A stretch of DNA of 36,562 nucleotides from a virus: the IMG/VR virus record IMGVR_UViG_3300030098_003906, positions 1 to 36,562 of that record, one strand, 5' to 3'. The notes beneath the pieces were generated by a model. The model was given only the letters and a program-made list of their open reading frames with translations, had not been told where the DNA came from and did no database searches. Below are positions 5,061 through 33,799 of this stretch, in pieces (within the stretch, counting starts at the first letter, position 1; every line of letters begins with the position of its first letter). Both the position numbers and the translations under genes were made by a program.

Positions 5061-5255
5061 TCATGGTTTCTGATAGACGATTAGGAAGACATTACCAAGG
5101 ACCATGATCGGTTCTACTGATACTATCTTAGCACCGTCGTAATCAGTTAGGGCCTCTATAGCAGTGGTCATGCTGGTGCTTAGAGCACCGTCATTGCCTG
5201 CTCCGCTAAATTGCTTAGGCGTGAACGGTCCTAGTACTTGTAGTGCCTTAACCAT
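5061..5255 (-). CDS. Small beta-rich head-region protein (64 aa)
   Basis: The ATG at 5255 is preferred over an in-frame GTG at 5264 because AGGTGA sits five bases upstream of it. The product is 64 residues. A first half with polar turns (GPFTPKQFSGAGNDG) is followed by a hydrophobic C-terminal strand-loop-strand (IVSVEPIMVLGNVFLIVY). That C-terminus resembles a beta hairpin more than a membrane span. It lies among small genes after the major capsid gene and may be a minor head or decoration protein. No family was recognised. Confidence 0.65.
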   Translation of the reverse strand: MVKALQVLGPFTPKQFSGAGNDGALSTSMTTAIEALTDYDGAKIVSVEPIMVLGNVFLIVYQKP

Positions 5256-5272
5256 CGGGTTCACCTACCGAA

Positions 5273-5554
5273 TCAACTTCGTTGACCCATAGCGAACCAT
5301 GTGCCGTCTTGACCGTTGACGTTCTGTATGACCAAGGTAGTTCCGTTGATCAGTGCGAACACTCCATCGACTCCTGCACCACTTCCGGGGGTGCTGCTAC
5401 CGGCGTTAGCGCCAGCGGCAACGATTGTGGCAAGTTGACTTGAGAGGTCTATGTTTCCTCCTGCGTCACTTCCACCGTTGGTGAAGGTGCCGGTCACCAT
5501 GAGTAGGTTGCCGACTGTTGTTGGTCTTGTGTCTATTGTACTTTCAAATGCCAT
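5273..5554 (-). CDS. Putative minor head / decoration protein (93 aa)
   Basis: A 93-residue Gly/Thr/Asn-rich beta protein with a TVGNLLMVTGTFTNGG opening, a mid-section with NIDLSSQLATIVAAGAN and a closing strand FALINGTTLVIQNVNGQDG. This layout recurs in small virion proteins next to HK97-type capsid genes in uncultivated marine tailed viruses. No signal peptide is visible, so it is likely cytoplasmic and incorporated into the head. The start is an ATG at 5554 with a GTGAT-type site just upstream. Assignment as a decoration or trimeric spike protein is an inference from fold composition and position. Confidence 0.6.
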   Translation of the reverse strand: MAFESTIDTRPTTVGNLLMVTGTFTNGGSDAGGNIDLSSQLATIVAAGANAGSSTPGSGAGVDGVFALINGTTLVIQNVNGQDGTWFAMGQRS

Positions 5555-6389: not shown

Positions 6390-7520
6390 TCAGGACAGGT
6401 CCCTCACGCTACCATGTGCTCCGAAGAAAGTGGTCCATATCTCACCCATGGTTCGGTATAGCCCTTCCTGACCTAGTCTGTTGATGGCGAATGGGTCACC
6501 AGTCTCGATACCACTCTCGTAGTACTGAGTTGGGATTGCTGTGCTGAAGTACACGTAGTCAGTGTCGAGGAAGTACATCCTGCTGATACCGTCTTTCACA
6601 ACGTCCTTGGATGGTATGATCGGGACACCGTTGTAAGTTGCCACGATGAAACCAGCCTCGATACCGGGAACACCCTTCACACCGTTGTAGGTGGGGGTCA
6701 CTCTCTTCTCTTCCATGAACCTCTGCTGGGACTGTAGCAGTTGCTGTAGTCTCATTAAGGTGTCATATCCAGTCAGGATGACCTTCGGGTTTCCACCGCG
6801 CTCCCAGATGTTCTGGAAGAGCGTGTCCAGTTGGTCTAGGCTGAGGGCCCTGTTCGTCGAACTTGCGTTCGCGTTGTCCTCAGCGAAGGACCATGTGTTG
6901 GCGCTTCTGTCTATGGAGTAGATGTCCTCGTCTCCAGCGTCGTAATGGGTGCCTGATGCCATCTGGTTGTTGCCAGTTGTGATTCTGTCCAACGACTCGA
7001 AGTTGTTGGCAGCGACGGTCGTGACGTCCGTGAGGAGCATCTTGTTGACCATCTCAGCGTGGTGCTTGCCCATCTCTTCCTTCAGTACGGATCGGATGTC
7101 TCCGAGACCGTCGTCCTTGTCAGCAAGGAAGATCGCAGTCTCCGACATGTCGAAGGTGTGTGCGATCGTCTTTGGCTTTGCAGCGATGTGCTGGAAGGTT
7201 GGTCTCACAGTCTCAGGCAGTGTTGCGTTCTCAGCAACTCCGCCGTGGAGTGCACCGCCGTTAGGCTTCTCTGTGATGACTCTCCAGCCGCTCCTGTCCC
7301 AAGGTCTCTTGGGTAGGATGCTGAAGGCGTTGAACTCTTGGTTCAACTGCGACCAGACCTTGCGCCCGTAGATTGCTTGGTAGGTACCAGCAGTCGTGGA
7401 CAGCATAGGGCTGTCAGCCTTGAGCAACTCGCTACCGGAGTAGGAGTATCCCATTGCGTTTCCAGCGCCGTAGTAGTAGCGCTCCATGTCTGTTATTGTT
7501 CGTACGTAGTCTCTTGCCAT
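6390..7520 (-). CDS. HK97-fold major capsid protein (376 aa)
   Basis: The 376-residue length, the position after a protease/scaffold gene and the sequence pattern identify the major capsid protein. An N-terminal helical arm is followed by a core with a long spine helix (DIRSVLKEEMGKHHAEMVNK), a P-domain segment (KVILTGYDTLMRLQQLLQSQ) and C-terminal strands (RMYFLDTDYVYF, then LYRTMGEIWTTFFGAH). The first helix region (TAGTYQAIYGRKVWSQLNQEFNAF, split here for description) resembles HK97-type capsids of archaeal tailed viruses. It forms the icosahedral shell. It has the best ribosome binding site in the window. It is likely cut from a precursor or left uncut; no obvious protease site can be seen. 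Confidence 0.85.
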   Translation of the reverse strand: MARDYVRTITDMERYYYGAGNAMGYSYSGSELLKADSPMLSTTAGTYQAIYGRKVWSQLNQEFNAFSILPKRPWDRSGWRVITEKPNGGALHGGVAENATLPETVRPTFQHIAAKPKTIAHTFDMSETAIFLADKDDGLGDIRSVLKEEMGKHHAEMVNKMLLTDVTTVAANNFESLDRITTGNNQMASGTHYDAGDEDIYSIDRSANTWSFAEDNANASSTNRALSLDQLDTLFQNIWERGGNPKVILTGYDTLMRLQQLLQSQQRFMEEKRVTPTYNGVKGVPGIEAGFIVATYNGVPIIPSKDVVKDGISRMYFLDTDYVYFSTAIPTQYYESGIETGDPFAINRLGQEGLYRTMGEIWTTFFGAHGSVRDLS

Positions 7521-21084: not shown

Positions 21085-22575
21085 TTATGGTATCATCCAA
21101 GGACTCCCGTAATTTGACTTTCGATGGTCCTTGCCTCCCATCCAGTCGTCGAATCCGGGTAAGATGTCATCAAGGAGCATGACGCTGCCCTTGAACTCCT
21201 TCGTCCCCCAGTTGGCCAGAGCGAGGCTCATCGCCAAGTCGTCATTGACACCGACGCTCTCGAGCCTGCCGTTCTTCTGCATGCCGAACCGGTTCAGTTC
21301 CTCCTCGACCTTGTGGGTGTACTGCTTGCTCCTCTCGTCACCGTATGGTAGTTTGATCTTGCCCTGCTCGAACGCCATGAGGAGCGACATGAACAGGGTC
21401 TCCTTCTTCGTGCGCGTAGTCATGAACGTGCGGATCGGTATGTCGGCCTTCATGTCCTGCAACTCCGCCTCGAACATCCGCTGGAAATTGTTGCCCTCCA
21501 GTTCGATCAGTTCCGGTTTGAATCTGTTATTAAGCAACAGCATCATGTTTCTCTGTGCGTGGCTGCCGAGCCCCTTCTCGTGAACGACATGTACGATCTG
21601 CTTGATGTCGTCGTCACCTAGGTACCTCATGATCGTCATGGCCGTGTAATCGGCGTTCTTGTCGGACGATATCGCTGGGTCCCAGCCAACAAAGTGCTGG
21701 CCCCACACGCCATCCGCCTCGCCTTGGTCGTTGTAGAAGGTCTCTGCCCTGTCGATGAGCACGAGTTCATGGTCACGTGCAGCCTCCAGTATGTCCATCG
21801 GGAACATGCTCGCAACGTCGTGGATCGGCTCACATAGGTACTCACGCGAGAATTGTATGGCTGGCATGGACATCCGCCTCTGCTCGAGGGCGTCAAGGTC
21901 CCACCGCTCTGGCCAGAGGGCGACGCCCTCGTTGTTGATGGCCGGATAAGTCTCGACCTTGAACGTCTCCTTCTGCTCCAACTCTGCATACAGGTCGTTG
22001 TAGGAGAACGGGGTACCGACCATCATCAGTCGACTCGAGTGATGCAGGACAGGGAGCAGGACGCCGTAGAACCAATCGGCTGCTCGTTGTAGTTCCGTCC
22101 CAGTAGTACCCCACAGGATGTCATCACACACGACCACGTCTGGGTGGAAGCCACGAGTCGCACCACCCACCGACTTCGCCATCATACGGCTGCCGTTGGT
22201 GAACTCGAAGTACGACTTGGCCCAAGGCTTGCCCTCCGGCTTGAGGTCCCTCAGACAGTCCGCGCTCTCTATGTTGTTGCGTATAAAGCGCATGTGCTCG
22301 AGGGTCTGCTCGAGCGAGTGTGAGAAGATCATGATGTGCTTTCCGGGGTTGAACGCCGCCAACCACAGTGCATACGACATGAAAAGCGTGGATTTGCCGT
22401 GGTCACGGGACGCCTTCACGCAGTAGTACCTGTGACCGTTGAGGCCCTTCTCCCACATCTCGTGATGGTGACTGTAGTGGAAACCCAGTATATCGGTGAA
22501 GAAGTACTTGAACGACTTCTTGGACATCTCCCTGTCCATCTCGACGACGAACTGCTTGACGCCCTCGTTGCTCAT
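21085..22575 (-). CDS. terL: Terminase large subunit (496 aa)
   Basis: The ATG at 22575 follows the upstream stop by one base; an in-frame ATG at 22596 is less likely. ATPase motifs: a Walker A variant SRDHGKST at 56-63, Walker B VVVCDD at 147-152 and coupling motif VGTPFSYNDLY. Nuclease motifs: GWDPAIS with D299, an acidic cluster ELEGNN at 358-363, and DDLAMSLALA with D445/D446, as in RNase H-type terminase nucleases. This motor pumps DNA into the prohead through the portal and cuts it. The candidate small subunit is encoded at 27.3-28.0 kb rather than adjacent. Confidence 0.93.
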   Translation of the reverse strand: MSNEGVKQFVVEMDREMSKKSFKYFFTDILGFHYSHHHEMWEKGLNGHRYYCVKASRDHGKSTLFMSYALWLAAFNPGKHIMIFSHSLEQTLEHMRFIRNNIESADCLRDLKPEGKPWAKSYFEFTNGSRMMAKSVGGATRGFHPDVVVCDDILWGTTGTELQRAADWFYGVLLPVLHHSSRLMMVGTPFSYNDLYAELEQKETFKVETYPAINNEGVALWPERWDLDALEQRRMSMPAIQFSREYLCEPIHDVASMFPMDILEAARDHELVLIDRAETFYNDQGEADGVWGQHFVGWDPAISSDKNADYTAMTIMRYLGDDDIKQIVHVVHEKGLGSHAQRNMMLLLNNRFKPELIELEGNNFQRMFEAELQDMKADIPIRTFMTTRTKKETLFMSLLMAFEQGKIKLPYGDERSKQYTHKVEEELNRFGMQKNGRLESVGVNDDLAMSLALANWGTKEFKGSVMLLDDILPGFDDWMGGKDHRKSNYGSPWMIP

Positions 22576-22576
22576 A

Positions 22577-23449
22577 TCACGCACCCTGCACTGCACCCGA
22601 TTGCTTGGCCTCGGTGTCCATGAATCTGTCCAATGAGCCTTCCATCAGTCTCTTCATTTGCTCCTCGGTTAGATTCTTGCCCTTGGGCTGTGATTGAGCA
22701 ACTGCGACGTTGCCTGATTTATTGCTCTGCTGGGCCAAGACCGGCACTTGCTCGTCCTCGAAGTATCCCTCGGCTTTATCCTCGGGTGTGGGACTCTCTA
22801 TCTCGGGCATGTTCCTAGGTAGTTGACTACCTGCGTATTGGTGTGTGAAGACGGTTTGGTTTGGGTCTAACCTGTTGACCCTAGCCTCCTGTGGTGTAGG
22901 TTGCCTGAATGGTTGTGGTTGTGCGACTGCGACTTGCTTTGGTTGGAACCTATGCTGTATGGTGTCTGCCCTACCCCTTTCCATTTGCCCGAATGTGACT
23001 GGGTCAAAGACGGGATTGTACTCTATCTTCTCAGGGACAGGTGGTGCAACTGCGACTGGTGCTGGTTTAATGCCCCTGCTGGCAGCACGGACACCGACCC
23101 TGCTTGCTATGGGGGCGATCGAACCATACGCCCCAGCCCCGGCACCGATGGCGCTGGTCGGCGACCTACCGGAGGCAATGGCGTCCATCATCCTATACCC
23201 GCCGTAGAGACCGGCTAGTCCCGTGCCTATCTTCTCTCCCAGCCTCATCCTCCTGTACTGGGGAGAGTCCATGCCATATCCGAGTTCCTTCGCAGCAGCG
23301 GGGGCGAGTGGCTTCTGAGGACCACTGAGGAGATTGAGGAGGCCGAGTTGCTCTACTGCACCCGCGCTACTGAGATCGGTGACAGCAGCCATGTTGCTGG
23401 CTGTCTGCTTGGGGTCGAACAACTGCTTGCGGACGAGCACCTTACTCAT
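22577..23449 (-). CDS. Structural-type protein with Ala/Gly-rich core (290 aa)
   Basis: ATG at 23449 lies within the stop region of the metallopeptidase gene and is preferred to an upstream GTG. The N-terminal region (SKVLVRKQLFDPKQTASNMA) is followed by an Ala/Gly-rich stretch (AIGAGAGAYGSIAPIASRVG) that could be membrane-associated or a flexible core, then a long Pro/Gln-rich disordered part and a helical end (LTEEQMKRLMEGSLDRFMD). It has no known family. It may be a minor virion protein delivered with the genome. Confidence 0.6.
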   Translation of the reverse strand: MSKVLVRKQLFDPKQTASNMAAVTDLSSAGAVEQLGLLNLLSGPQKPLAPAAAKELGYGMDSPQYRRMRLGEKIGTGLAGLYGGYRMMDAIASGRSPTSAIGAGAGAYGSIAPIASRVGVRAASRGIKPAPVAVAPPVPEKIEYNPVFDPVTFGQMERGRADTIQHRFQPKQVAVAQPQPFRQPTPQEARVNRLDPNQTVFTHQYAGSQLPRNMPEIESPTPEDKAEGYFEDEQVPVLAQQSNKSGNVAVAQSQPKGKNLTEEQMKRLMEGSLDRFMDTEAKQSGAVQGA

Positions 23450-28896: not shown

Positions 28897-29834
28897 TGAT
28901 CACCTATCTGTTGGTTCATGGGAGGGGGTTGTTGGTTAATTATCTGCTGGAACGCGGGTGTGGGTTGCTGCATCTTTGCCAACTCGTCTTGGAATATCCT
29001 CAGATCGAACGTGACGGTGGTGATGTCATTGAGTCCTGTCATCGGGTTCGTGTAGTGGTTGATGTTGATGCCCTTGGTCACCCTCGAGTCCCTCTCAAGC
29101 AACTCGAAGAAGGGCTCGTACTTCGCCAGCATCTCAGGAACAGGTATCTCGTCCCTCTTCATGGTGGAGACTGGGACGGTGACGATGGAGACCCCTCGCT
29201 TCACCTTGTCCTTGAACCTCGATGGCTGCATCTCCTTCTCCTTCTCCTGCTCGGCCTCCCACTTGCACAGCAGGTGGTAGAGGTGGAGGTGCTCGGGGCA
29301 GTACGTGCCCCTCATCCTCCTCCCGCTCGTGACCTTGTCCATGGCGAGGAATGCAGATGGCTCCCCAGTCACTGGGTTCTGCCAGTACATCTCCCATAGG
29401 CTGCGGCCTGTGTCTTCGTCGCATATGCGAGCGTAGAGGTTGTCGTGCTGTATGAGTTCGGAGCAGTTGCATCCGTCGACGACGCATACGTGGGTCTGCT
29501 TGTTGTACAGGTACTTCGATCCCAGTAGTCTTGCTGGACTGAATATATTCCTCTTCGCTGGGCGAAGTAGTTTGTAAGCCTGCCTGATGTCCTTGCGCCT
29601 CGCCTTCCTAGGATCTGCGTGTGTGCTTGGGTAGAAGTTGACCTTGGGCACTTCGAGGTTCTTCTGCTGGGCTATCTCCTGCATCTGCTGTTGTGCGACA
29701 GCCTGCTCCATGAGCGCTGCCCTGTTGAGTTGGGGGTTACCCTGTGCGGCGAGCGCCATGAGATGTGCCTCGTTGACGACGCCAAGTGACTGCTGGGGTG
29801 TTGAGGCCATTGGATTCGGAATTCCACCCATCAC
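28893..29834 (-). CDS. Zinc-binding protein with helical ends (313 aa)
   Basis: The N-terminal helix region is Ala/Gln-rich (LMALAAQGNPQLNRAALMEQ). The middle holds a Cys/His cluster (CVVDGCNCSELI near 113-124, later YCPEHLHLYHLLC) that likely binds zinc, after a basic patch (KARRKDIRQAYKLLRPAKR). The C-terminal third has strands (SIVTVPVSTMK) and a Gln/Pro-rich tail. It follows the AbrB-like gene with a four-base overlap. It is probably a structural or nucleic-acid-binding virion protein. Not recognised. Confidence 0.6.
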   Translation of the reverse strand: MMGGIPNPMASTPQQSLGVVNEAHLMALAAQGNPQLNRAALMEQAVAQQQMQEIAQQKNLEVPKVNFYPSTHADPRKARRKDIRQAYKLLRPAKRNIFSPARLLGSKYLYNKQTHVCVVDGCNCSELIQHDNLYARICDEDTGRSLWEMYWQNPVTGEPSAFLAMDKVTSGRRMRGTYCPEHLHLYHLLCKWEAEQEKEKEMQPSRFKDKVKRGVSIVTVPVSTMKRDEIPVPEMLAKYEPFFELLERDSRVTKGININHYTNPMTGLNDITTVTFDLRIFQDELAKMQQPTPAFQQIINQQPPPMNQQIGDQ

Positions 29835-30025
29835 GCCTGATCACCCTCCTTGACTGGTAGGACCTTGATGTACATGGATTTTCCGTCTGTGTCGAGCCTC
29901 CAGTTCAACCGGTCTCCCGCAGCGAGAGAGAACTGCTCGACCAACCACATGGGGACCGTGGTTCTGAGGCTGTTAGAACCACCACCGGTGGAGACCAAAG
30001 CAGTATCCCCATTGGTCTTGGCCAT
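29831..30025 (-). CDS. AbrB/SpoVT-type swapped-hairpin DNA-binding protein (64 aa)
   Basis: LRTTVPMWLVEQFSLAAGDR followed by LNWRLD is the typical AbrB/MazE-like core: a basic strand, the Pro-x-WLVEQF helix and the GDRLxW strand, here at residues 21-46. These dimerise and bind DNA as repressors or antitoxins; the type is frequent in archaea and their viruses. No toxin gene is adjacent, so a repressor role is more likely, possibly at the palindrome in the 31.7 kb gap. It lies right after the GTPase gene. Confidence 0.8.
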   Translation of the reverse strand: MAKTNGDTALVSTGGGSNSLRTTVPMWLVEQFSLAAGDRLNWRLDTDGKSMYIKVLPVKEGDQA

Positions 30026-30071: not shown

Positions 30072-30785
30072 TCATGAGGTCAGCAAGTCAAGCATGCTTA
30101 TTTCCACGTTCCAACCTATGCGTGTGGCCATGAAGGAGCGCTTGCTCCTGATGTTCGCCTTCTGCAGCCTGATCAAGTCGTCTCGGAAAGGGTCAAACAC
30201 CTTGTGCTCGCCTATCCTCCCCTGCTGCCAGAGTAGTGCTGCCTTCTCGTCGAAGAACCGATCGGCCTTGTTCGCCACCAGCATAACGACCTTTGGCGAG
30301 TACTTCCTGCCCTTCCATCTGCTCCTCAATGTCCTGTATCGATAATTCCTGCTTACGAGTACGTCAACGAGGTACTTGAATCCAGCAACCTGCTCCATGC
30401 CCTCGGCTCCCCCCTTGAACGCCCTGTCGTCGAACATGTAGACGACGGCCTCAACTTGCCTTGCCACCATGTCATCGACCCACAGGTTCCAGAATCTCTC
30501 TTGGCCTCCAACGTCACTGGAGTTGACGACACGCTTCTCCCCCTTCCAACTGATCCTCTTCTTAGATGCCCTCGGTAGCATATAGCGATTCAGAATGCGG
30601 AAGTGGTTGGTCCTCTCCTCCTCGGGGATATCCTCCATCTCACCGGGGGTTGTCATGTAGCGATCGAGCGTCGTCTTGCCGACCATACTTGTACCGTAGA
30701 TACCAACGCTCCTCGGCTTCCAAGCGTTGTAGAGGTGCTGGCCCCATAATGCTGCGCCGACCAGAACGCTGCCTGTCGCCGACAT
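30072..30785 (-). CDS. Arf/Ras-like small GTPase (237 aa)
   Basis: The GTPase motifs are in order. G1 P-loop GTSMVGKTT at residues 31-39, G3 DVGGQERF at 91-98 followed by WNLWVDDMV, and G4 NKAD at 172-175. DxGGQE with a W-rich follow-up is the Arf/Sar/SRP-receptor-beta pattern rather than the bacterial Era or translation type. An N-terminal hydrophobic stretch (GSVLVGAALWG) could anchor it to membrane. A GTP switch at the membrane is the expected action of the family; its role in the virus is unknown. Two membrane proteins are encoded immediately upstream in the same unit. G5 (SAK) is not obvious. Confidence 0.85.
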   Translation of the reverse strand: MSATGSVLVGAALWGQHLYNAWKPRSVGIYGTSMVGKTTLDRYMTTPGEMEDIPEEERTNHFRILNRYMLPRASKKRISWKGEKRVVNSSDVGGQERFWNLWVDDMVARQVEAVVYMFDDRAFKGGAEGMEQVAGFKYLVDVLVSRNYRYRTLRSRWKGRKYSPKVVMLVANKADRFFDEKAALLWQQGRIGEHKVFDPFRDDLIRLQKANIRSKRSFMATRIGWNVEISMLDLLTS

Positions 30786-30791
30786 CCTCGA

Positions 30792-31052
30792 TCAACCCAC
30801 CAGATCAAGGAGCCATTGGGCGAGATCCTCGACCTTACCAGCAGCCCAATCACCCGTTGACTCCCAGATCGCTATGTCGGTGTAGTACTCCACGGCACTG
30901 GTACCAAGCACACCGATGCCGAATGCGATGAGCGTCCGTACCCATCCTATGCCCCATTCGTAGACGTTGTCAACGGTATTCGCCAGATGCATTGCGCGGA
31001 GGGTCTCCTCCACGGAGTCGTCCTTCGGGGTCTTGAATATCTTGCCCATCAC
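30792..31052 (-). CDS. Small single-span membrane protein (86 aa)
   Basis: A basic N-terminus (GKIFKTPKDDSVEETLRAMH) is followed by one hydrophobic span at about residues 34-55 (GWVRTLIAFGIGVLGTSAVE) and an acidic/aromatic helical tail. No family was recognised. It overlaps the upstream gene by four bases and ends six bases before the GTPase start, so the three are probably co-translated and could form a membrane complex. Confidence 0.7.
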   Translation of the reverse strand: MMGKIFKTPKDDSVEETLRAMHLANTVDNVYEWGIGWVRTLIAFGIGVLGTSAVEYYTDIAIWESTGDWAAGKVEDLAQWLLDLVG

Positions 31053-31627
31053 TTGTCACCTCGGACCTTCTTGTATCTAAGGTCCGGGGTGCCATCCTTC
31101 TTTAGGGGTATGCCATTCTCATTCACTCCGAGGTTCAATGAGGGCGTGACGGAGGCCTCGTGGACCGGTGTGCCGGGGTTGAACGTGCTGTGCATGTCGC
31201 TGCCTAGGTTCAAACCGTCCCGTGCTGCGCCAGTGGGGCTGAAGCCACTAGGCACCTTGCCGGGATTCTGCTCCATCCACCTGAGTTCCTTCTCCAGTTC
31301 CGCCTCCGCCTTGCGCAGTTCCATCTCCGACCTCCTCTGATCGAAGTTGGCCTGCATGTTGCGGAACCTAGATTGCTGCGATCTCTGCATCTCGTTGATG
31401 CGAGCCCGCTCCTGCAGGTTTCTCTCAAAGAACATCTTGAACATGTAGTAGGCGAGCCCCTGCACTGCAAAGGCCCCCATTCCGTAGTTCAGTCCGTTCA
31501 TCCAGACATCGTCGTTCACTAGCCATAGTTCAGAGTCGAAGATGGCGACTGCCACTCCGATGAGTGCCGACTGGCTCAAAATGAGTCCCATGAGCCTTAT
31601 CTCGGCGTCGTTGTTGTCTTGAGACAT
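31049..31627 (-). CDS. Two-span membrane protein with coiled coil (192 aa)
   Basis: Hydrophobic spans are at ~13-31 (MGLILSQSALIGVAVAIF) and ~46-66 (GMGAFAVQGLAYYMFKMFF). A long charged coiled coil follows at ~67-125 (ERNLQERARINEMQRSQQSR, then RKAEAELEKELRWMEQ). The tail is Gly/Pro/Asn-rich. It is the first gene of a unit with its own upstream gap and GGGGT ribosome site. The coiled coil would face the cytoplasm and could bind the GTPase encoded two genes downstream. No homologous family was recognised. Confidence 0.7.
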   Translation of the reverse strand: MSQDNNDAEIRLMGLILSQSALIGVAVAIFDSELWLVNDDVWMNGLNYGMGAFAVQGLAYYMFKMFFERNLQERARINEMQRSQQSRFRNMQANFDQRRSEMELRKAEAELEKELRWMEQNPGKVPSGFSPTGAARDGLNLGSDMHSTFNPGTPVHEASVTPSLNLGVNENGIPLKKDGTPDLRYKKVRGDK

Positions 31628-31779
31628 AGTATGACCCCTGTTGAGGGCAACCGTGAGGTCAACATAAAGGTATTGTGAGAAATGTGTCTAAGTGTCTAAT
31701 GTATAGTCTATACATATAGAATAATACTTACTTGTAGAGTATATCGTACAGATGAATAATCGGACGAATCGGAATCATC
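31628..31779. other. Intergenic gap holding regulatory elements, no gene
   Basis: 152 bases between the ADP-ribosyltransferase-like gene and the membrane-GTPase unit. It has no credible open frame and holds the octamer repeats, palindrome and TATA-like element. No clear T-rich terminator was seen. Confidence 0.6.
31684..31713 (-). promoter_or_regulatory. Putative operator: tandem octamers and palindrome
   Basis: GTGTCTAA occurs twice in tandem (31684-31699), then GTATAGTCTATAC at 31701-31713 is a perfect inverted repeat around one base. The region is AT-rich, unlike the rest of the window, and lies in the 152-base gap ahead of the membrane-GTPase unit. On the coding strand TTCTATATG next to it is TATA-like. 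A regulator, perhaps the AbrB-like protein of this unit, may bind here. Confidence 0.5.
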
Positions 31780-32244
31780 CTACTGCATGTCCCCTGACCA
31801 GTTGAAGTCGGCTGGTATCTGAGTTAGGTACTCTGGCCTCACGCCTTGTGGGTAGAACCCCTCCTCCATCCAGTCTTCGGTTCCCATCGTCACAGTTGGA
31901 TCATACTCCCTGTCTTCGCTACGAGAGCGGCTTACACCCTCCCTGACACCCAGCACCATTGGTTTGACCTTCGTTCCATCCCACCCACGTTGGTCGACTG
32001 CCTTTGCATTGGCATACCTCCTCGCTATCTCGTAGTCATCGCTGACATAGGCACCATGCCCATGTACGCCTCGCTTCGGCCTGATACCAGCGGGATCAGC
32101 CATGATCATCTGCGCCACCGGCTGGGTCGTGCCATGGAAGTGCATGACGTGTGAGCCGTATGGGCTTGGGAGGTCCGGGTGAAACTCACCGAGCGTGGTC
32201 TGCCTCTTGAGCAAAGTCCATGCTCGGTCGAAGGGGCTCATCAT
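31780..32244 (-). CDS. Putative ADP-ribosyltransferase with AWxLLK motif (154 aa)
   Basis: MHFHGTTQPVAQMIMADPAG with His37, then GVHGHGAYVSDDYEIARRYA with Tyr66, then a late Glu138 in VRPEYL fit the H-Y-E triad of PARP/diphtheria-type ADP-ribosyltransferases, which transfer ADP-ribose from NAD. Viral ARTs modify host proteins or RNA; phage T4 carries such enzymes to alter host RNA polymerase. The N-terminus is SPFDRAWTLLKR, a copy of the recurrent motif. The start overlaps the HNH-like gene stop by four bases. The ART call is from motif order only. Confidence 0.6.
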   Translation of the reverse strand: MMSPFDRAWTLLKRQTTLGEFHPDLPSPYGSHVMHFHGTTQPVAQMIMADPAGIRPKRGVHGHGAYVSDDYEIARRYANAKAVDQRGWDGTKVKPMVLGVREGVSRSRSEDREYDPTVTMGTEDWMEEGFYPQGVRPEYLTQIPADFNWSGDMQ

Positions 32245-33245
32245 ACCACCCTCAGCGTACCCCGGTCCTTGAAGTGCCTCGCCCTGTTCGCATGCTCGGG
32301 CTCAAGCGTCAGCCTCCCACCCTGCGTGTGGCTGACGTCCATGTGGTCACCAGTGCCGTAGATGCCCCTCTTTCGTCTCTCAGCGTGGAGTTCGCGCTGG
32401 TACTTTCGCCGCTCGGGCGTCTTCTCGTACCGCTTGTCGTACTCCAACTTGCGCCTCATCGCCTCTGGCGACTTGCGCTCCTTGAGCAACCTGAAGGCGA
32501 GTGCCATTGGCTCGCCGGTTCGCACGTCGTAGATGGAGGAGGGTGGTTGAATGAGGTCCTCGTAGTTCTCCATCAGCGCTGCCTGTACTTTGCTGGGTAT
32601 AGTACTACTGCCAATCGGAGCCCCCGTGTACGCGTACGTGGGCTGGATGGGCTTGTTAGGGTTGGCTGGGGTGATAGTGATGGGCATGATGCCCCTTCCT
32701 GACTCGACACGAGGGTTGTTCATCACCTGATACACGACACCGAGGTCCCTCGGTCTCATGAACAACTGGTTCCGCCTCCTCTCTGGCATGGCAGCAGCCA
32801 CGTCCTTCTTTGATGCGGCGTACGTCTCACCGGGTCGAGACAGGTACGACTGCAGGTACAGCCTGTCATCAACGCTCATGTCATCAAAGAGTCCCCGGCT
32901 GGCGAGGAACTCCGCGAGTTCGAGCGATCCCTGATACGGGTCCTCCATCGACTCGGAGATGATCTTGGGATCTTTTATCCTCCTCTCAATCCTCTCCTGT
33001 ATCTTCTGCGACCCAGCCCTTCCGGGGCTCATAATGTACTGGTAGGGCTTCTTTCTCCTCTCCCTGAGTGCAGGTAGAACGGCGCTGCTGAACGTGCTTG
33101 TGCCGGGGCTTGGCCTCATCACGACCGCTTTCTTGACGCCGACCGGCTTAGAGCCGTACTTCTTCGTCCACCTCTCGGCTATCTCAGGCTCGTTTGCGAA
33201 CATATACCGTCTCTGCTTCTCTGAGCGGAACGGCATACCCATCAT
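32241..33245 (-). CDS. HNH-like protein with phage PFRSEKQRRYM N-terminus (334 aa)
   Basis: The N-terminus (PFRSEKQRRYMFAN, then EIAERWTKKYG) is a common phage opening of unknown role. Near residue 255 PMALAFRLLKERKSPEAMRR is a variant of the recurrent motif, followed by KLEYDKRYEKTPERRKYQRE. The C-terminus from ~282 has GDHMDVSHTQGGRLTLEP then NRARH, with H301, H306, N320 and H324 in an HNH-like order, so a nuclease is possible; cysteines for a zinc site are absent. It lies in the accessory block right before the ART-like gene. Confidence 0.6.
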   Translation of the reverse strand: MMGMPFRSEKQRRYMFANEPEIAERWTKKYGSKPVGVKKAVVMRPSPGTSTFSSAVLPALRERRKKPYQYIMSPGRAGSQKIQERIERRIKDPKIISESMEDPYQGSLELAEFLASRGLFDDMSVDDRLYLQSYLSRPGETYAASKKDVAAAMPERRRNQLFMRPRDLGVVYQVMNNPRVESGRGIMPITITPANPNKPIQPTYAYTGAPIGSSTIPSKVQAALMENYEDLIQPPSSIYDVRTGEPMALAFRLLKERKSPEAMRRKLEYDKRYEKTPERRKYQRELHAERRKRGIYGTGDHMDVSHTQGGRLTLEPEHANRARHFKDRGTLRVV

Positions 33246-33799
33246 CTTCGTGCTGACATCATCATCGTGAGTTGGTTGTAGAGTTGCTCGGCCTGCATCT
33301 TCAACTGCAACTTCCTCTGTGGGTCCTGCTCCATCTCAGCAGCGGCATCGAGTTCGTTGACCCTCTGTCGGGCAGCCTGCAGGTCCGTCATCATGGACTG
33401 GCTCGCTGGCACTCCCATCATGTTGTAGTTCTTGATCAAGGACCATGCCATGTCGAACGCGTCGTCGGATCGCTGGATCATCTCCGGTTCTCTCGGCTTT
33501 AGTGGGATGATGTTGCGGGCCCTCTCTTGTGGCCTCCTCGACATAACTGCTTCCATCTCCTCTCTCCTTCCATCATAGTTGGTTCCCGGCCTGACGTCAC
33601 TGGTCTGCGTGTATGGGAGACCGTACTGCTGCGCTATCATCGCTAGGGTGGTTGGATCTAAGCGCCCGAATCCACGCTGGGCCAGTTCCTTCTTCTTCTC
33701 GTCCTTGTCAGGCTTGGCCGTGTCCATGGGTGACTTCGGTGACGGCTTGCCGACGGCGATGACCAGAGTCATGCCCTTCTTGCCCTTCATGTCCTTCAT
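33242..33799 (-). CDS. Accessory coiled-coil protein with AWxLIK motif (185 aa)
   Basis: The basic start KGKKGMTLVIAVGKPSPKS leads to a variable middle. DDAFDMAWSLIKNY at ~112-125 is the recurrent motif. A helical coiled-coil end (AARQRVNELDAAAEMEQDPQ, then LKMQAEQLYNQLTMMM) could oligomerise. It overlaps both neighbours by four bases. Function unknown. Confidence 0.6.
   Translation of the reverse strand: MKDMKGKKGMTLVIAVGKPSPKSPMDTAKPDKDEKKKELAQRGFGRLDPTTLAMIAQQYGLPYTQTSDVRPGTNYDGRREEMEAVMSRRPQERARNIIPLKPREPEMIQRSDDAFDMAWSLIKNYNMMGVPASQSMMTDLQAARQRVNELDAAAEMEQDPQRKLQLKMQAEQLYNQLTMMMSARR

Follow-up and report, generated by a model that had tools for sequence, protein, structure and literature searches.

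A virus record of 36,562 bases (the window, meaning the whole stretch of DNA analyzed here; a 36.6-kb fragment without a replication module) encodes what is almost certainly a small GTPase of the Ras superfamily, as judged from its motifs and predicted fold, together with a coiled-coil membrane protein (cc) and a small membrane protein (sm). We propose that these proteins belong to a membrane GTPase switch of the virus itself that operates late, in virion morphogenesis or exit, and we put the probability of this proposal as a whole at about 45%. Eukaryotic cells and some archaea characteristically use small GTPases as switches on membranes, and to our knowledge tailed viruses of prokaryotes do not carry one. 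From the sequence comparisons below, we regard the viral protein as a new subfamily of small GTPases and the genes as a previously undescribed late unit in tailed viruses.

Table 1. Features of the window discussed in the text
Feature	Coordinates	Strand	Basis or remarks
Major capsid protein, SU10/HK97 type	6390..7520	-	
Terminase large subunit	21085..22596	-	phrog_38, E=7e-66; late-module anchor
Gln/Met-rich protein, 211 aa	28261..28896	-	Travels with the unit; profile comparison between lineages, E=2e-4
Cys/His protein, 313 aa	28893..29834	-	Travels with the unit; CVVDGCNC and RGTYCPEH
64-aa protein directly downstream of the GTPase	29831..30025	-	AbrB-like by eye only
Small GTPase, 237 aa	30072..30785	-	G motifs, AlphaFold2 model, alignment
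sm, small membrane protein, 86 aa	30792..31052	-	N-terminal motif, then one hydrophobic helix from about residue 35
cc, coiled-coil membrane protein, 192 aa	31049..31627	-	Two membrane helices, long charged helix to residue 120, disordered tail
AT-rich intergenic gap upstream of cc	31628..31779	.	152 nt, 37% GC

The three ORFs lie on the minus strand. As a preliminary description of this DNA had stated, they share one orientation, a single protein carries a P-loop, DVGGQERF followed by WNLW, and NKAD, and two membrane proteins, one with a long coiled coil, are encoded directly upstream. In the GTPase, G1 (GTSMVGKTT) begins at residue 31, G3 occupies residues 91 to 98 and precedes WNLW (DVGGQERFWNLW begins at residue 91), and G4 lies at residues 172 to 175; G2 (RT, residues 58 and 59) and a G5-like element (FMATR, residues 218 to 222) had been overlooked. 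The motifs follow the order of the Ras superfamily (G1 GxxxxGK[ST], G3 DxxG, G4 NKxD, G5 SAK), with G1, G3, and G4 kept in every lineage that we found and G5 reading canonical VSAKS in a distant lineage, ATR in that of the window, and ATR or SSQ outside the distant lineage. An alignment of 31 GTPase sequences from the near and distant lineages, with identities down to 28%, contains invariant residues at G1 (Y30, G31, G36, K37, T38, and T39), at G2 (R58 and T59) and nearby (T46, G48, I53, and K76), at and after G3 (D91, G94, W99, W102, D105, R109, and D119), and at G4 and beyond (A171, N172, K173, D175, H194, F200, and L207). At the catalytic position, Q95, the lineages differ in having Gln, Glu, or Asp; because Glu or Asp replaces Gln in several of them, GTP hydrolysis may be slow or partner-dependent.

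An AlphaFold2 model of the GTPase (26 sequences; mean pLDDT, 73.7; pTM, 0.75) places the Ras elements in order after an N-terminal helix at residues 2 to 22, with low confidence in the P-loop and switch I (residues 38 to 50 and 60 to 64). Foldseek searches with this model returned Rab6, KRas, other Rabs, Arl10B, and an Asgard Arf with a probability of 1.00 and TM-scores over the target of about 0.4 to 0.65. Rab, Ras, and Arf rank highest among its 598 PDB matches at E<=0.001, in keeping with a six-stranded sheet of Ras topology; when viral proteins are compared, the named best matches come from giant eukaryotic viruses and are G proteins of the Ras family and other kinds. A combined GTPase profile compared with the PDB matched Asgard Arf (8oun, E=0.001), SRbeta (5ck3, E=0.005), and Rab33B (E=0.008). 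Matches of single sequences to families all fall below threshold, and nearly all point to one superfamily: Roc (23 of 26 members), MMR_HSR1, Gtr1_RagA, Arf, and Ras, along with the small_GTP model (21 of 26 members; best E=8e-5). The distant-lineage GTPase has subthreshold matches to SRPRB, Ras, and Arf.

None of these families claims the protein as a member. Arf (PF00025) scores at best E=0.0055, with 16.6 bits against a cut-off of 22.3, and the protein has no Gly at position 2 for myristoylation; membership in Arf is rejected on both counts. SRP receptor beta (PF09439) reaches E=0.0014 and 18.5 bits against a cut-off of 25 in the distant lineage, and no Pfam match to its partner, SRalpha, was found in the neighboring proteins, so SRbeta membership is likewise rejected. 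Roc (PF08477) scores 19.6 bits against a cut-off of 27, and the protein ends after the G domain, without a COR domain. The preliminary label "Arf/Ras-like" therefore stands as to the Ras superfamily and is too narrow as to Arf, since subthreshold matches extend to Roc, MMR_HSR1, Ras, SRPRB, and Arf alike. The predicted fold of the GTPase alone is that of a small GTPase, and fold and family searches together contradict an unrelated P-loop ATPase.

The viral GTPase shares with Arf/Arl proteins and SRbeta the DxGGQ switch II, the P-loop, NKxD, an N-terminal helix before strand 1, and a membrane setting; it differs from them in extra residues in switch I and after strand 4, in its own conserved W-x-x-W-x-x-D-M switch II, and in its dedicated viral membrane partners. 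The unit may work in a manner analogous to an Arf/Arl or SRbeta switch with a membrane tether. Rab, Ras, and Roc proteins, including those of giant eukaryotic viruses, share the Ras fold, and the viral protein has a GxNVE-like C terminus of the Rab type; however, it lacks C-terminal lipidation cysteines and a Roc-COR extension, and its gene is a fixed neighbor of two membrane genes in nearly every genome sampled. The GTPase begins with MSATG or MSxMxG. Over 19 residues, the hydropathy of its N-terminal helix peaks at 0.77 in the window and at up to 1.7 in relatives; with a helix this short and no more than moderately hydrophobic, it is uncertain whether the GTPase itself inserts into the membrane.

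The two partner genes are tightly spaced, with cc and sm overlapping by 4 nt and sm ending 6 nt before the GTPase. The predicted structure of cc contains helices at residues 3 to 31 and 41 to 120, the second extending from a membrane segment into the coiled coil, and the disordered tail ends in KKDGTPDLRYKK; the tail motif LKKDGTPDLRYKK at the C terminus (31049-31102, minus strand) is kept in many relatives, not all. A conserved soluble N-terminal motif, FKTPxDDSxExTLRAxHxxNTxDxxYE, precedes the hydrophobic segment of sm, which has a mean hydropathy of 1.41 in the window and 1.64 across the family. Positive residues flank the membrane segments and, by the positive-inside rule, suggest a cytoplasmic location for both the sm motif and the coiled coil of cc. 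In three lineages, cc and sm are connected by profile comparison (E of about 1e-5). In the most distant lineage, topology, order, and size agree with those of the window's proteins, and sequence comparison gives E values of 0.005 to 0.07, at which homology is not clear; its sm carries QRAHSADIWFLRARF at the place of LRAMHLANTVDN in the window.

Successive searches recovered relatives of the GTPase in 106 and then 175 viral contigs, and the order cc-sm-GTPase was present in all 80 loci fetched. In a GTPase-independent test, we retrieved loci by their terminase gene. Every locus with at least 8.4 kb of upstream sequence (45 of 45) has the GTPase, and the 35 loci that lack it break off short of that distance. 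A virus contig apparently misbinned in a cellular genome led to a lineage at about 30% GTPase identity (89 contigs), in which the trio is kept in 74 of 74 loci with room upstream, and the combined profile revealed two further levels, at about 55% and 38% identity. In total, we collected 211 distinct GTPase loci from at least four viral lineages, with identities from 100% to about 29%. Where at least 900 nt lie upstream, the trio order holds in 195 of 196 loci, a count that rests on position, size, and hydropathy, with the homology of cc and sm assessed separately by the profile comparison above. The single exception, L341, has one 96-aa ORF inserted between sm and the GTPase (5224-5514 of that locus), which looks acetyltransferase-like by eye.

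Purifying selection is strong, with dN/dS of 0.025 for the GTPase and 0.076 for sm in one pair (the window and L004), and the mean pairwise identity of the GTPase (71%) is close to that of the terminase (77%). Conservation and dN/dS lead us to reject chance or an annotation artifact. A mirror-tree analysis of coevolution in clade 1 gave a correlation of 0.49 for the GTPase and cc but 0.50 for the GTPase and a neighboring HTH protein and thus showed nothing specific. We consider it very probable that cc, sm, and the GTPase work together. The three-gene unit proposed in the preliminary description is borne out in its fixed order and enlarged in its extent, as profile comparisons place two downstream proteins in the same conserved unit: the Cys/His protein, homologous between the two most distant lineages (E=1e-6), and the Gln-rich protein move along with the trio. 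The 64-aa protein is the immediate downstream neighbor of the GTPase in about 100 clade 1 loci.

Upstream of cc, the 152-nt gap is probably the promoter or operator. The palindrome previously noted there was confirmed as a perfect 8+1+8 repeat, ATGTATAGTCTATACAT, at 31699-31715; an equal palindrome arose in 23 of 2,000 shuffles of the gap. We rejected it as a conserved operator, since the exact palindrome is absent from most relatives shown. A box like CCTTTATGATGACC recurs a few tens of nucleotides before cc in many loci, with AT-rich dyads around it; the box and dyads are possibly an archaeal TATA box and operator.

Other late proteins upstream of the unit, otherwise unrelated, contain a repeated motif, (F/M)DxAWxLLK, with 2 matches in the window (31780-32244 and 33242-33799, both minus strand) and 10 in the full relative G001 (nine late genes; L174 and L175) versus 0.12 expected by shuffling. 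One possibility is a common peptide that targets these proteins to the head or scaffold. The small protein at 31780-32244, which carries AWxLLK at its start, weakly matches an ADP-ribosyltransferase family (ART-PolyVal, E=0.096); only a few relatives have it directly next to the unit on the upstream side. G001 also contains, at 42930-60860 (L172 and L173), a late ORF whose length, 5,976 codons, is exceptional among tailed viruses.

Among 50,697 phage records, the window capsid and portal matched haloarchaeal Druskaviridae (HVTV-1 and HCTV-1), at 33% and 29% identity, and two methanogen-associated tailed viruses, and no others. Relatives of the window virus measure 90 to 118 kb and mostly encode DNA polymerase B (PolB), which is present in 8 of 8 near relatives (records of 99 to 115 kb). 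In the whole record of a 107-kb relative, an SNF2 helicase, an RFC-like AAA protein, PolB, and a Cpn60/TCP-1 chaperonin lie on one strand, and the head and tail module lies on the opposite strand. The same layout has been published for Magrovirales, viruses of Poseidoniales (PMC12999244, PMC10768690). Shared with the Magrovirales families Apasviridae and Aoguangviridae are 90- to 118-kb genomes, PolB, RFC, chaperonin, HK97 capsid, and oppositely oriented late and early modules; the relatives combine an HK97-type capsid, portal, and terminase akin to those of marine archaeal tailed viruses and Druskaviridae with genomes of about 90 to 110 kb and PolB. We assign the window virus to the tailed viruses of the Magrovirales type, an assignment made by gene content and not by a tree with ICTV exemplars. 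PolB is in two pieces in the fourth and most distant lineage, as described for Aoguangviridae (PMC10768690). The assignment of Poseidoniales as hosts comes from the literature (PMC12999244, PMC10768690); the viruses that bear the unit are abundant, uncultured ocean viruses, and their hosts are probably archaea.

Outside these viruses the unit was not found in Halovirus HVTV-1, in 50,697 phage records, or in PHROGs. ORFs from the whole HVTV-1 genome gave no match to the GTPase profile at E values up to 10, though the capsid is almost as close. Together with the viral structure matches, the phage records uphold the earlier view that a virus-encoded GTPase of this kind is no known part of tailed viruses of prokaryotes. 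The unit goes without mention in the literature searched; earlier annotation is possible in Philosof 2017, Zhou 2023, and Prabhu 2025. A search of 84,980 prokaryote genomes yielded only two GTPase matches, one in an Asgard bin and one in a Maricaulis bin, both on short contigs that resemble viruses; these look like misbins, and a cellular origin of the two copies is rejected. Archaeal-type virus contigs occur in both bins (JABLTJ010000060 in the Asgard bin; G010:C57, G010:C77, and G010:C111 in Maricaulis bin NZMJ01) and are probably misbinned. In 99 further genomes of the Maricaulis phylum there was no profile match. Asgard archaeal GTPases match the profile weakly, in 24 of 119 genomes with a best E of 1e-10 when the misbinned viral contig is left out, and some of them carry DLGGQEDFWSLW.

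The unit occupies a late setting. Like the trio, the large head genes of the window (terminase, portal, protease, and capsid) all lie on the minus strand, and the GTPase is on the strand of terminase and capsid in every record checked. This strand is opposite to that of PolB. Three lineages have the GTPase about 8 to 10 kb upstream of the terminase, and the fourth has it about 1.8 kb behind the capsid gene. Proximity to terminase or capsid and the strand opposite PolB suggest late expression, and on balance we favor a late role (assembly or exit) over an early one. The block has changed position yet stayed together on the late strand, which argues for function as a unit; the common ancestor of these viruses probably already had it.

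In the scheme that we propose, in which hydrolysis of GTP, the side of the membrane, the formation of a complex, the timing, and the step itself are all inferred, the GTPase would be held at the cytoplasmic membrane of the host by its N-terminal helix and by its one-helix partner, sm. In its GTP form it would engage the cytoplasmic coiled coil of the two-helix protein cc, and the switch, with the Cys/His and Gln-rich proteins, would direct some step of virion morphogenesis or exit that takes place at the membrane. Two observations, the late setting and the absence of the unit from the haloarchaeal relative, favor a connection of this step with the host envelope; most likely, assembling heads would be kept at the membrane, or the membrane would be remodeled or opened for release.

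Two other readings are each improbable. The trio could consist of virion components (tail tip, neck, or an internal membrane patch) that serve entry, in which case the GTPase would act a single time, after the host membrane has been contacted. A block among structural genes, adjoining terminase or capsid, fits this idea, but the related HVTV-1 has no counterpart, the trio does not carry the repeated FDxAWxLLK motif of the upstream late proteins, and membrane-anchored proteins are generally unusual in tailed virions. Alternatively, the GTPase could mimic a host small GTPase or signal-recognition receptor and redirect membrane protein insertion, lipid traffic, or polarity of the host during particle production, with cc and sm as its receptors. 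Such a take-over would agree with the rank of SRPRB among the best Pfam matches of the distant lineage (E=0.0014) and of SRbeta among the best PDB matches, and with the Asgard small GTPases that match the profile down to 1e-10; the late-module setting and the absence of an SRalpha-like partner from the block speak against it.

We consider quite unlikely a cassette for lysis or superinfection exclusion, in which sm would be a holin-like pore, cc a membrane blocker or spanin-like rod, and the GTPase a timer. Two small membrane proteins near the terminase do occupy a common site of phage lysis genes; however, no lysis-family match was found among the neighboring proteins tested, sm has a conserved soluble motif, unlike holins, and we know of no GTPase timer for lysis. 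Finally, the idea that the P-loop protein is another P-loop NTPase with accidental gene neighbors is nearly refuted: although every single-family match is below its curated cut-off, NKxD, DxGG, and SAK stand at Ras spacing, the fold matches, and the gene order persists in all but one of 196 loci.

Returning to a late membrane switch, we tentatively extend the proposal to a whole order of tailed archaeal viruses, which might assemble or release its particles at the host membrane by means of a Ras/Arf-type GTPase of its own, a dedicated membrane receptor, and a coiled-coil tether, a generalization that we hold less firmly than the proposal itself. If true, this would be the first small GTPase that is core, not sporadically captured, in tailed viruses of prokaryotes, and part of a system resembling membrane trafficking. 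The history of Arf/SRbeta-like GTPases would likewise gain an independent, diverged branch. A fixed late-module GTPase in abundant ocean viruses would give a handle on the assembly and exit of marine archaeal tailed viruses.
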